NCBI RefSeq assembly: GCF_008274585.1
Contig: NZ_VTRT01000004.1
Span: forward strand, 310,001-374,000
Source: Pedobacter sp. BS3
GTDB taxonomy: Bacteria; Bacteroidota; Bacteroidia; Sphingobacteriales; Sphingobacteriaceae
Direction: 5' to 3'
Length of the DNA: 64,000 bases
Shown here: piece after piece, positions 24,402-29,203 of the stretch
Layout of the letters: every line of letters starts with the position of its first letter
How positions within the stretch are numbered: the stretch's first letter is position 1
Program-made: the position numbers and the translations under genes
Notes under the pieces: generated by a model
Database searches by the model: none
What the model was told of the DNA's origin: nothing
Seen by the model: the letters and a program-made list of their open reading frames with translations, nothing else

Positions 24402-24505
24402 ATGAACCGAACATGATGGCAGGCAATTACACAGGAAGCTTAAGAAGAATGATATATCATTCTATGTGCTCCGCCATCCCATTTAAAAACAAAAAATATT
24501 GTCAG
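24402..24505 (+). repeat. Structured leader repeat, copy 1, before SusC 2
   Basis: About 104 bp directly upstream of the SusC 2 start that closely matches the segment before SusD 2 (27379-27481). Both begin with ATGAACCGAACATGATGGC and end with CCATTTAAAAAC, AAAAAATATT and TCAG just before the ATG. This copy contains a perfect 18-bp palindrome AGAATGATATATCATTCT (24436-24453), enclosed by GATGGC (24415-24420) and GCCATC (24473-24478). A regulatory or RNA-processing role is inference. Confidence 0.6.
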
Positions 24506-27367
24506 ATGAAACATCAATTCAATAAAAATATATCCGCACAACCTGGTGTTACGGGCCTGAGCTTTTCAGGGCTTAGGTTGAAAAAGGTTGTGCCGCTATT
24601 GCTATGCTGCTCCGCATTTTTGCTTAAGCTGAACGCACAGCCTGTTCAGTACGAAGCCAATGTTGATTCGATAGCCCGGGTAGCTTATGGTACACAAGCC
24701 AAAGACCAGGTTACTTCAGCAATATCGAGTGTGAGCGGAGCCGAGCTGCGTAAAATTCAAACCGCAACCTTAACCAATGCCTTGATCGGTAAGCTGCCGG
24801 GAGTAACCATTATGGGTACAGGCGGGGCGCCCGGTTTTGATGAGCCCAGCATTACAGTACGTGGACAGCATACCTCGTTAAGTAATGGCGTTTTACTTCT
24901 TGTAGATGGCATCCAGGTTAATAACATCAGCTTTTTATCGCCCGATGAGATTGAAAGCGTAACCGTGTTGAAGGATGCTGCGGCATTAGCCTTATATGGG
25001 GCCAAAGGTGGAAACGGCGTATTGCTGGTAACTACCCGGCGGGGGAATCTCAGCAATAAAACAAATATTTCACTAAACGCCAGGTACGGCTCCCAGTCGG
25101 CAATACAGTTGCCCAAGCTGGCCAACTCGTATGACTTTGCCAGGCTTTATAATGAAGCGAGGCAGAATGATGGATTGCCGCCTACCTATACAGCCACCCA
25201 GTTAGAAGGTTACCGGTTGGGAACAGATCCTTACCTGTATCCCAATGTAAACTGGTTTGACGAGATCCTTCGAAAAAATTCGCCGATACAGGATTACTCC
25301 GTAACCTTTGACGGAGGCAACCAGACCGCCAAATACTTCGTAATGGCAGGTTTTATGAATAACCAGGGTTTATATGCAGGTACAGACCAGACACATAATT
25401 CTAACCTGAACTACAACTGCTTAAATTTCAGGGCCAACCTTGATCTGAACCTGTCCAAAGGCTTTTCTGCCCAGGTGGGTTTGGGAGGAAATATCCAGGA
25501 CCGGAGATTTCCGCCTGTAGCTACGGCAACCTTCTGGCAGAACATGATCACTTATGCACCTAATTTGTATTCTGTAAGAACCCCGGATGGCCGGGTTACA
25601 GGTTCGGCAAATTATCCGAGCAACCCTTTGGGCGATCTGTTAGAAAGAGGTTATCAGTCCCGGCATGACCGTAACATCCAGATGAATGTGCGGGCTACCC
25701 AGAAGCTTGATTTTATAACAGATGGATTAAAAATATTCGGAGCGGTATTGTTTGATAACCTGTTACAAAACCGGTATGATAAAACCCGTAACTACGCCTA
25801 CTACGAGCCATTGCTGACCACCGGATCAAACGGACAGGATTCTATTTATTATCAGCAACAGGGACTGGATTCAGATTTGTCGGTAGTTACCGGTAATGAC
25901 TACGAAAACAACCGTATCATTTTTCAGGGTGGTTTTGATTTCGACCGCAAGTTTAACCAGCACGAAGTGGGAGGAATGATCTTCTTCCAGCAGGATAAAT
26001 ATACGGTGTTAGGCAACCAGTCGGCTTTTGCCATGCAAAACCTGGCAGGCCGCATAACCTATAACTACAAAGAGAAATATTTTGCCGAAGGTGCTTTTTC
26101 GTACAGCGGCCTGGAGAATTATCCTCCGGGACACCGGTTCGGTTTCTTCCCGGCAATTTCAGCTGCCTGGTTAATGCATAAAGAAGATTTCTTAAAATCA
26201 AGCAAATGGATCAATTACCTGAAGCTGCGTGCATCTGCCGGTATGGTTGGTAATGACCGTGGCGCTTCACGCTTTAACTACAACCAGTATTGGGGCACGG
26301 CCAGCAGCCAGGGCTATTATTTCGGAACCGGACAGAACTTTTCCAGCGCACTGGTACAGTTGGGAATGGCAAATCCGGATATCACCTGGGAAACAGGGCG
26401 CATTCTTAACTTTGGTGTAGATGCTGCCTTGTTTAACAACAAGCTGAGCATAAATGCCGATGTATTCCATGAAAACCGTTCGGATATTCTGGTAAATATG
26501 TCAGGTGTTACATCCGCATTAGCAGGTTATACGGCGGGTGTAACAGCCAATAAGGGCCGCGTAATTGATTACGGAACAGAAATAGCCGCAACCTATAATG
26601 GCGATGCCGGTAAGGTTAAATATTATGTAGGCGGACAGTTTACGTATGCGTTCAACAAGATCAAGGAGAGCTATGAAACCCCTAAAAAAGAAACCTATAG
26701 TTACCGCCAGGGTCACCCGGTTGGACAATATTTTGGACTGGAAGCTATAGGCTATTTCAGAGATGAAAGTGATATTATATCCAGCCCGGTGCAAACCTTT
26801 TCTACGGTACGCCCCGGCGATTTAAAATACAAAGATCAGAATGGCGATGGCATAATCGATGTGAACGATCAGATCGCTATTGGTAAGGCAAACTATCCGC
26901 AGATCAATTATGGAGTGAATACCGGTGTTGCCTTTAACGGGTTTAATCTCGACCTGTTCTTCCAGGGTGTAGCTAACCGGAGCGTGTATCTGAGTGGCTA
27001 CCTGTTTCAGCCATTTACCAATAATGCCAATGTGTTAGATTGGGCAGTAAACGGTCGCTGGACTCCCGAAACCCGTGCCACCGCTACATATCCCAGGTTA
27101 ACAACACAGTCTAATGCCAATAATTACCAGGCATCGACATTCTGGGTACGTAACGCCAATTTTTTAAGGCTTAGAAATATTGAATTAGGCTATACCTTAT
27201 CTAAAAAAGCGGTAGCTAAAATGGGGCTTGAAAGCATTAAGTTTTATGTAAGCGGTATGAACTTACTTACATGGGATGACTTAGCTGTTGATGTTGACCC
27301 CGAAACGTTGAGTATGGGATATCCTACGCTGAAATCCTACTCGGCCGGAATTAGTGTTAAATTTTAA
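24506..27367 (+). CDS. SusC-like TonB-dependent receptor 2, without the N-terminal regulatory-like domain
   Basis: A predicted outer-membrane importer of 953 residues. The ATG at 24506 gives a signal peptide (LRLKKVVPLLLCCSAFLLKLNAQ). A longer open frame back to 24257 overlaps SusD 1 and runs through the repeated leader, so it is rejected. Unlike SusC 1, the mature protein has no carboxypeptidase-regulatory-like domain. It goes within about 20 residues to SIARVAYGTQAKDQVTSAIS, a TonB-box-like remnant of the usual VVVGYGTQ motif, and then to the plug (ALIGKLPGVTIMG ... LYGAKGGNGVLLVTTRRG) and barrel, ending AGISVKF. The barrel is full-length. It is paired with SusD 2. Confidence 0.93.
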   Translation: MKHQFNKNISAQPGVTGLSFSGLRLKKVVPLLLCCSAFLLKLNAQPVQYEANVDSIARVAYGTQAKDQVTSAISSVSGAELRKIQTATLTNALIGKLPGVTIMGTGGAPGFDEPSITVRGQHTSLSNGVLLLVDGIQVNNISFLSPDEIESVTVLKDAAALALYGAKGGNGVLLVTTRRGNLSNKTNISLNARYGSQSAIQLPKLANSYDFARLYNEARQNDGLPPTYTATQLEGYRLGTDPYLYPNVNWFDEILRKNSPIQDYSVTFDGGNQTAKYFVMAGFMNNQGLYAGTDQTHNSNLNYNCLNFRANLDLNLSKGFSAQVGLGGNIQDRRFPPVATATFWQNMITYAPNLYSVRTPDGRVTGSANYPSNPLGDLLERGYQSRHDRNIQMNVRATQKLDFITDGLKIFGAVLFDNLLQNRYDKTRNYAYYEPLLTTGSNGQDSIYYQQQGLDSDLSVVTGNDYENNRIIFQGGFDFDRKFNQHEVGGMIFFQQDKYTVLGNQSAFAMQNLAGRITYNYKEKYFAEGAFSYSGLENYPPGHRFGFFPAISAAWLMHKEDFLKSSKWINYLKLRASAGMVGNDRGASRFNYNQYWGTASSQGYYFGTGQNFSSALVQLGMANPDITWETGRILNFGVDAALFNNKLSINADVFHENRSDILVNMSGVTSALAGYTAGVTANKGRVIDYGTEIAATYNGDAGKVKYYVGGQFTYAFNKIKESYETPKKETYSYRQGHPVGQYFGLEAIGYFRDESDIISSPVQTFSTVRPGDLKYKDQNGDGIIDVNDQIAIGKANYPQINYGVNTGVAFNGFNLDLFFQGVANRSVYLSGYLFQPFTNNANVLDWAVNGRWTPETRATATYPRLTTQSNANNYQASTFWVRNANFLRLRNIELGYTLSKKAVAKMGLESIKFYVSGMNLLTWDDLAVDVDPETLSMGYPTLKSYSAGISVKF

Positions 27368-27378
27368 AAGGCTTTACG

Positions 27379-27481
27379 ATGAACCGAACATGATGGCGAG
27401 CAATCACGCAATGGTATGAAAAGAATAAGATGCCATCATGTGAGCTCCATCTGTCCATTTAAAAACAAAAAATATTTTCAG
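27379..27481 (+). repeat. Structured leader repeat, copy 2, before SusD 2
   Basis: Second copy of the leader at 24402-24505. Here ACATGATGGC (27388-27397) is fully complementary to GCCATCATGT (27432-27441), so pairing between GATGGC and GCCATC is kept in both copies although the intervening sequence differs. Both copies contain the mini-frame ATG AAC CGA ACA TGA. Confidence 0.6.
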
Positions 27482-29203
27482 ATGAAAATCAATTACATGA
27501 AATTAATGAAGCTAACAGTTGCTTTTATAGCAATTTTAGTTACCTGCGCAAGTTGCAGTAAGTTTTTAGATCGAGAACTGGAAACTAATTACAAGCAGGA
27601 GGATGTTTTCGTAAATTACGACAGGATGCAGCAGGCCGGCTTCGGGGTGTATGCCTACCTGTTTAACCGCTTTGGATATCAGCGCATAGACAATGCCATG
27701 CTGGCCTCTGCCTGCGATGAAGCCGATCATGCCGATCCCGGCTCCAGCATTCAGAAGTATAATACAGGCACATGGACGGCTGCTTCCAACCCGGAAGATT
27801 GCTGGGCCTACTTTTATCAGGGTATACGCAGCGCTAACCTGTTTCTTGAAAATTCTAAGAACTATAAACAAATTATTTACCGCGATACCATCGACCCTGC
27901 AAACAAAAGCACCTATGAAACCAATGTAAAAGATATCGCGTGGTTGCGGGCCGAAGCTCGTTTTTTAAGAGCCTTGTATTACTTTGAGTTGATCAAGCGC
28001 TACGGAGGTGTGCCCATTGTTGACAAATCAACCTACACCGATGAGGAATTAAAGCAGTTTAAACGGAAAACCTTTGATGAATGCGCTAAGTTTATTTCAA
28101 ACGAATGCGATACCGTGTATCCCCAGCTTAAAGATACCTGGGTTGGCTATGCCTCAGAAAGATGGCGTGGAAGGGTTACGCAGGGAGCGGCTCTGGCCTT
28201 AAAAGCCAGGGTGTTGCTATATGCCGCCAGCCCGTTAAATAACCCGTCGAACGATGTTACAAAATGGGAAGCCGCAGCCAAAGCCGCACACGATGTGATT
28301 GCCACAGGCAGGTATGCGCTGCACAGCAGCTATAGCGGCTTATTCAGGTTGGGTAACGGCGCCGATGGTAACTCTGAAGTGATCTTTGCCATACAGGGCT
28401 GGTCCAGGAATGATTTTGAAAAAACAAATTACCCGATCGGTTATCCTCAGGGCGGCCAGGGGAGTACAAGCCCATCGCAGAATTTGGTAGACGCTTATGA
28501 GATGAAAGCTACCGGAATGCAAATTGGTGAGCCTGGTTCGGGGTACAACCCGGCAAATCCTTACAGCGGGAGAGACCCGCGTTTAGGCATGTCAATTCTA
28601 ACCAATAACACTACGTTTAAAGGCCGCCCGGTAGAATGCTGGGTGGGCGGCTTAGACGGACTTGGCAAGCTCTACGCTACAACAACCGGCTACTACATCC
28701 GTAAATTTGTTGACGAAAGTCTTGATCTGACAAAGAACTCAACCAGTGTGCATACCTGGATATTATTCCGGTACGCCGAAATATTGCTTGATTATGCCGA
28801 GGCAATGAACGAAGCCTATGGGCCCGAAGCTACCCACGGCTACACCATGACTGCCAAGGCTGCTGTAGACAGGGTGCGCCAAAGGGCAGATGTGCTTATG
28901 CCAATTCTGTCTCCGGGGCTTTCAAAAGAAGAAATGCGGGAGCATATTCGTAATGAACGCCGTGTAGAGCTGGCTTTTGAAGAGCATCGTTTCTTCGATG
29001 TGCGCCGCTGGAAAATTGCCGAACAAACCGAAAATAAACCCATAATGGCTATGAAGATTACCAAAGAGCCTAATGGTAGCTTTACTTACCTGGTACAAAA
29101 AGCCGAAGACCGGGTTTTTAATCCCAAAATGTACGTATATCCCATTCCGGAGACCGAAGTACTGAAAAGTGAAGGTAATTTAACACAAAACGAAGGCTGG
29201 TAA
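27482..29203 (+). CDS. SusD/RagB-type surface glycan-binding lipoprotein 2
   Basis: A 573-residue lipoprotein partner of SusC 2. ATG 27482 gives MKINYMKLMKLTVAF and a lipobox CASC with Cys25; the in-frame extension to 27416 only translates the leader repeat. SusD signatures are FLRALYYFELIKRYGGVPIVD, QGAALALKARVLLYAASPLNN, a C-terminal RNERRVELAFEEHRFFDVRRWK and a terminal YPIPETEVLKSEG. It differs enough from SusD 1 to suggest binding of a different part of the polysaccharide or a different oligosaccharide, which is inference. Confidence 0.96.
   Translation: MKINYMKLMKLTVAFIAILVTCASCSKFLDRELETNYKQEDVFVNYDRMQQAGFGVYAYLFNRFGYQRIDNAMLASACDEADHADPGSSIQKYNTGTWTAASNPEDCWAYFYQGIRSANLFLENSKNYKQIIYRDTIDPANKSTYETNVKDIAWLRAEARFLRALYYFELIKRYGGVPIVDKSTYTDEELKQFKRKTFDECAKFISNECDTVYPQLKDTWVGYASERWRGRVTQGAALALKARVLLYAASPLNNPSNDVTKWEAAAKAAHDVIATGRYALHSSYSGLFRLGNGADGNSEVIFAIQGWSRNDFEKTNYPIGYPQGGQGSTSPSQNLVDAYEMKATGMQIGEPGSGYNPANPYSGRDPRLGMSILTNNTTFKGRPVECWVGGLDGLGKLYATTTGYYIRKFVDESLDLTKNSTSVHTWILFRYAEILLDYAEAMNEAYGPEATHGYTMTAKAAVDRVRQRADVLMPILSPGLSKEEMREHIRNERRVELAFEEHRFFDVRRWKIAEQTENKPIMAMKITKEPNGSFTYLVQKAEDRVFNPKMYVYPIPETEVLKSEGNLTQNEGW

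Follow-up and report, generated by a model that had tools for sequence, protein, structure and literature searches.

Two members of a previously uncatalogued hairpin element, dispersed across Bacteroidota, precede susC2 and susD2 in Pedobacter sp. BS3

Why do two neighbouring genes of one operon begin behind the same leader? The question arises in a stretch of 64,000 nucleotides from Pedobacter sp. BS3 (the window, contig NZ_VTRT01000004.1), where about 105 bp in front of susC2 recur in front of susD2. SusC and SusD are different protein families, so the repeated leader is no by-product of gene duplication, and the initial annotation read it as a selected RNA element controlling each receptor component. 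We compared the leaders with each other, with the rest of the genome and with other Bacteroidota. They are two members of a previously uncatalogued dispersed hairpin element, roughly 80-135 bases long, that occurs across many Bacteroidota genomes.

Two leaders in one operon

The leader lies at window positions 24402-24519 and 27379-27496, on the forward strand like all features below, and stands in the same register relative to both genes. The copies (~105-118 bp each) share 77-78% identity (E 3.6e-15), and a DNA search of the 4.81 Mb genome with copy 1 gives copy 2 as its sole strong match, the next (E 0.04) being a self-palindrome. Each leader runs from ATG AAC CGA ACA TGA through a palindrome and an A-rich stretch to the gene's ATGAAA. 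Recurrence upstream of both genes, the mini-frame and the AT-rich tail (TTTAAAAACAAAAAATATTNTCAGATGAAA) are thus common to both copies, as originally described.

The pairing of GATGGC with GCCATC fared less well: both motifs are present in each copy, but the two GCCATC sequences are non-homologous, lying 58 nt from GATGGC in copy 1 and 40 nt in copy 2. The GCCATC of copy 2 is part of a 10-bp stem, ACATGATGGC (27388-27397) with GCCATCATGT (27432-27441), an inverted repeat that covaries across the element family and is its conserved stem. That stem is degraded in copy 1, where GCCATC (24473-24478), predicted to pair with GATGGC at 24415-24420, sits at the position of a second conserved motif, the anti-start; the fold, the family alignment and the covariance-model match (model R1, below) mark its CATC (24475-24478) as an anti-start remnant. 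The anti-start of copy 2, CATCTG (27448-27453), is the complement of CAGATG (27479-27484), which comprises the susD2 start codon and the three bases before it; this pairing is predicted by folding and covaries in 97 distinct sequences.

Measured from old start ATGAA to new start ATGAA, copy 1 spans 24402-24510 (R1 69.1 bits, E 2e-10 in the window; 77% identity to copy 2) and copy 2 spans 27379-27486 (R1 92.2 bits, E 1.3e-14 in the window). Copy 1 is partly degraded and has lost most of the basal stem; copy 2 is intact and well preserved. The mini-frame (encoding MNRT) occupies 24402-24416 in copy 1, where the insertion model drawn from empty sites of other copies would make it the old start-codon site plus the beginning of the 5' arm, and 27379-27393 in copy 2. 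A-rich initiation regions common to the family follow at 24480-24505, evidently supplied by the element, and at 27457-27481. Folded as single sequences, copies 1 and 2 are unremarkable (z -0.8 and -1.3), so it is the family that supplies the evidence for structure.

The gene susC2 (24506-27367), a TonB-dependent receptor with a plug domain (PF07715), has its new start at 24506, and its frame is open upstream as far as 24257. The gene susD2 (27482-29203; PF07980 and PF14322) is given a start at 27416 in the list of open reading frames, 22 codons too early and within the element (27416-27481); its closest orthologues align with this longer frame from residue 22 or 28 onward. Automatic start calls at element-bearing sites are likely to be wrong.

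A widespread element family

Searching about 400 genomes of the taxonomic family with copy 2 by BLAST gave matches mostly on its 3' half, adjoining the same 5' motif, together with many weak matches to the A-rich tail only. A covariance model, R1, built from an alignment of 17 members, matched 164 of 251 sampled genomes of the family at E <= 0.01, often with at least 15 matches per genome, and 40 of 295 genomes of the class at E <= 1e-4, spanning many families. With blastn and the covariance model together, copies located in Chitinophagaceae and other Bacteroidia run into the hundreds. The genome of Pedobacter sp. BS3 itself holds 11 R1 matches at E <= 0.01 and several weaker ones, which are older members; a separate hit in this genome (L003) was discarded as chance, lying within a LacI-like coding frame.

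Rfam 15 returned no family at the gathering threshold and none convincing at a relaxed E-value. BLAST against plasmids gave weak matches to the A-rich tail only (E 0.02-0.09) and BLAST against phages gave none, while an exact 16-mer scan of viral contigs yielded 22 raw matches. A literature search confined to open-access papers found nothing matching the element.

Two covarying pairings

Covariation was assessed on 97 distinct sequences, whose relatedness inflates the counts that follow. In the long hairpin 88.2% of pairs are standard, and double-change cells number 100 where shuffles give 31.6 (0/500); the alignment was itself fitted to that structure. The anti-start (CAUNNG) and the new start (CNNAUG) are paired in 97.1%, with 29 double-change cells where shuffling leaves 5.0 (0/500); this pairing is absent from the covariance model, and controls slid along the alignment reach 12-40%. 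All four Watson-Crick pairs occur at position -1 of the anti-start pairing (C-G 63, A-U 11, G-C 8, U-A 5), and matched variants include CATCTG/CAGATG, CATATG/CATATG, CATGTG/CACATG, CATTTG/CAAATG and CATCCG/CGGATG. When the anti-start is set against the old-start flank, covariation stays near control (31 of 97 paired at that flank's -1), which is expected if the flank is host sequence. At one stem position the orthologous traN leaders (L279, L360, L361) vary between C-G, U-G and U-A, a pattern suggesting that the structure is maintained in place at the RNA level. Tested on the family alignment, the idea of a structured element is thus borne out, with strong covariation in two pairings.

Position at gene starts

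Among 84 copies read with their context, the terminal ATGA(A) opens a frame of at least 38 amino acids in 76; the others are tandem copies or are followed by very short frames, and two run straight into a second start. All copies in the Pedobacter sp. BS3 genome, the weaker ones included, terminate at gene starts. For scale, ATGAA sites in the window fall at 14 gene starts, at 30 intergenic positions and at about 145 positions within genes, so that starts make up 14/44 of the start-or-intergenic sites. In two loci (L203, L132) the element's start opens a six-codon frame (MKGDAK), and the stop of this frame overlaps the following gene's ATG in a way that resembles translational coupling. Elsewhere, the 3' half of an element stands just upstream of two tRNA genes (L114), and in L482, where no gene is obvious, repeats of gtccctacaggac surround two copies, one of which ends in ATTAA.

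Further copies do precede susC/susD genes in relatives (L101, L102, L104, L131, L119). The proposed restriction to receptors, or to one operon, did not survive this survey, since copies also stand before many other genes, rpmJ, ilvE, ppa and tra among them, and two Niabella and one Chitinophaga have an orthologous susC2-susD2 junction of just about 15-30 bp, without the element. Read from sequence, the downstream genes include rpmJ, ilvE-like, pirin-like and tra genes, pyrophosphatase (ppa), RidA, sus genes and lipoproteins. A link to exported proteins, hinted at by the copies in the Pedobacter sp. BS3 genome, failed in other genomes.

Some copies in recently active genomes lie in 5' regions yet off the start (L403, L407, L408, L426, L427), and a degenerate antisense copy sits inside a Y1 (RAYT-like) pseudogene among a cluster of broken Y1 genes (L505, about 1365-1465, in genome G642). 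These copies imply that start specificity may be largely selection; occupancy of starts probably reflects some preference plus selection.

Filled and empty sites

We sought orthologues of element-bearing genes in nine genomes and compared their upstream DNA. The filled locus L260 reads '..aaacgtaaaatgtATGAA[..]ATGAAAAACAGTG' and the empty locus L361 '..aaacgtaaaatgtATGAAAGACAGTG'; their flanks are identical (..cttaaaacgtaaaatgt) up to ATGAA, and the gene continues after the element's own ATGAA. Other pairs agree: L237/L334, L247/L342, and L360 and L361 (filled) against L362 (empty). Empty sites place the insertion directly after ATGA(A), and both ends are usually ATGAA, which would mask any target duplication. 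Comparison of L274 with L360 shows an old ATGAT kept at the left end and a new ATGAA at the right; because these ends differ, the new start arrives with the element and the old start survives as the mini-frame's first codon, an arrangement that argues against target duplication.

The mini-frame is therefore a displaced old start codon and is not conserved across the class, contrary to the first reading of it as a retained feature: its stop, and even the old ATG, are missing in several copies (L376-L378, L380, L392, L400), and no conserved leader reading frame of the kind found in an attenuator with a leader peptide was seen. For the two window copies, close relatives yielded no clean empty site, the Niabella orthologues being empty but diverged; the comparisons demonstrate insertion after ATGA(A) of a start codon for other copies, and the window copies presumably entered in the same way. 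In some genomes successive genes of a conjugative-transposon tra operon (L274 and L279, on contig C12 of the Pedobacter sp. BS3 assembly at about 210-211 kb; L360-L362) have separate copies in front of them, and other genomes have none there, which makes these loci useful filled/empty pairs.

Recent mobility

Two copies in G566 (L409, L410) are 100% identical with unrelated flanks, and other copies there are 95-99% identical; ten copies in G657 have a mean identity of 95% with flanks at background. Both genomes also hold head-to-tail arrays. Arrays of this kind, and identity between copies at unrelated loci, show that the element has moved recently. In the G657 arrays of near-identical copies (L423-L431), the new ATGAA of one copy is the old start of the next. 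In many G566 copies (L479-L481, L473-L476, L411, L415) the loop encloses a nested second palindrome (CCTGTGTGCCGAAACACTTCGGTGTGCAGG); an extra hairpin lies within the 3' arm of some, and in some it falls exactly between the two pairing regions. No long autonomous version was seen in G566, nor half-elements 1-3 kb apart.

How the leaders may have arisen and act

Very probably each leader belongs to a single dispersed family of short, non-coding palindromic elements and reached its place by inserting at the start codon of its gene, susC2 or susD2. The element would enter immediately behind the ATGA(A) of a start codon, leaving the old start at its 5' end as a short dead-end frame and bringing its long hairpin, its A-rich initiation region and an ATGAA that serves as the new gene start. 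The gene would then use the new start, at which the closest orthologous proteins begin, and copies at start sites may persist, others being lost or decaying, since the element supplies a usable start. With less assurance, the anti-start could pair with the old or the new start, so that ribosomes on one site would alter the other and a copy could shift the translation of its downstream gene. The element's position makes an effect of this kind plausible. Predicted folding does not fit a simple model in which the old start is hidden and the new one exposed, the new start being no freer than the old: over 134 copies, mean open probability is 0.34 for the old and 0.25 for the new start, compared with 0.40 in 26 native starts, and both starts are predicted to be partly closed. 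We offer only tentatively, as a reading that may well not hold, that this is a class of element living on start codons, in which insertion is directed to starts or kept only there, the host start lies in a hairpin, the element's own start lies in the covarying anti-start hairpin, and each insertion creates a competing two-start switch.

A true cis-regulatory RNA would read the same features differently, as a translational switch shared by a regulon: the anti-start would keep the gene start hidden and release it once captured by the 5' arm. Two mutually exclusive covarying pairings, one with the start codon, fit such a switch, as do the compensatory changes in the orthologous traN leaders and the effect of blocking the 5' arm, after which the new start is predicted to be less open in 96 of the 134 copies. 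We nevertheless judge it unlikely: the gene set is incoherent, showing no recurrent tie to one pathway or gene family of the kind a riboswitch or dedicated leader has; orthologous genes of sister species are without the element; tandem arrays, and near-identity between copies at unrelated loci, point to recent spread; and the mini-frame is not conserved in the class. Given the filled/empty pairs and the mobility, the presence of the leader is better explained by insertion of a dispersed element than by a regulon.

Nor does recombination within this operon, copying one leader onto the other, seem a probable account. The window copies are indeed closer to each other than to other copies in the genome, and their similarity extends 8-10 nt beyond the start (ATGAAAcATCAATT), but at least nine other copies lie elsewhere in the genome and the family is widespread; local duplication could account for the origin of one copy, not for the nature of the element. 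The two operon copies are possibly separate insertions, or one was possibly copied from the other. Chance likeness of A-rich initiation regions combined with chance palindromes has next to no standing. The A-rich tail is common at Bacteroidota starts and accounts for many weak matches of copy 2, but the E of 3.6e-15 between the copies, together with the covariance-model and covariation statistics, already refutes it.

Insertion of a mobile element raises the question of the machinery that targets start codons. Within the insertion explanation, and not in competition with it, we considered as a proposed mobiliser a Y1 transposase acting on a non-autonomous IS200/IS605 or REP/RAYT-type element, binding the hairpins and cutting after ATGA(A) with the anti-start guiding cleavage. 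The ends favour it, being ATGAA on both sides with the left one belonging to the old site and the right one to the element (L274 against L360), and so does an internal guide complementary to the right end; the anti-start arrangement fits the guide/cleavage-site logic of IS200-type elements (PMC6006769). Y1 genes are present in G566, G657, G642 and G444, all sampled for many or near-identical copies, and also in G000, G165 and G124. Against it, Y1_Tnp was not found in the element-rich genomes G088, G072, G114, G093 and G078, and the Y1/RAYT genes examined are flanked by other palindromes, the element itself having no GTAG-type foot. No cognate RAYT gene flanked by the same repeat appeared among 17 Y1 loci, and only two Y1 loci have the element nearby (L500 and L505/L509), not as a flanking pair forming the gene's own ends. 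Neither a transposase nor an autonomous copy could be tied to the element among the genomes and loci examined. We find this mobiliser rather doubtful, and dropped a Y1 transposase as the sure mobiliser as unproven.

In some Bacteroidota lineages, then, a mobile element appears to provide the start codon from which many genes are translated, among them those for ribosomal protein L36, pyrophosphatase, conjugation and sus receptors. This also affects start-site annotation, as the susD2 frame listed from inside the element illustrates. Natural pairs of filled and empty alleles would allow control of translation by leader structure to be measured in bacteria without Shine-Dalgarno initiation.

Comparison with known systems

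Small dispersed repeats such as BOX/RUP and Correia are probably mobilised in trans and alter the expression of their neighbours. The element resembles them in being small, interspersed and probably moved in trans, and differs in its start-codon position and in having no MITE-type terminal inverted repeats; its ends are direct repeats, unlike the terminal inverted repeats and target-site duplication of a MITE of a DDE transposase. Rickettsia palindromic elements, of ~100 bp, insert into genes without killing them and are translated in frame within proteins. The likeness is a palindrome of about that length entering genes that survive; here, however, the element sits at the start, replaces the initiation site and is not translated, ending at the gene start where the closest orthologous proteins begin. 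Non-autonomous derivatives of IS200/IS605 (PATE type) have terminal hairpins and keep the target on the left. The element shares the terminal hairpins, the retained left target, the lack of true duplication in L274 and the guide-like complementarity, but its left and right ends match no Y1 element found and its anti-start pairs with the new start codon.

REP/REPIN sequences with their RAYT (TnpA_REP) are likewise short imperfect palindromes in many dispersed copies, mostly outside genes, and the Bacteroidetes RAYT subclass 2.6 is associated with 'atypical secondary structures' copied in the genome (PMC6006769). The element shares with them, as with IS200/IS605 derivatives, a hairpin joined to a short fixed site, but it is longer, inserts in sense orientation at start codons and has ATGAA as its foot in aligned copies in place of GT[AG]G (or CGTC); it does not flank the RAYT genes examined, and several element-rich genomes have no detected Y1. 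TAACTGA heptamer repeats occur in many copies just upstream of the starts of unrelated genes, some in Bacteroidetes (PMC4679880), but they are simple direct heptamers with neither a hairpin nor a supplied start codon. Since it fails the tested REP features (foot and cognate RAYT flanks) and has no tie to Y1, we place the element among the small mobile palindromic repeats, outside any named family, where its occupancy of start codons is an unusual feature.
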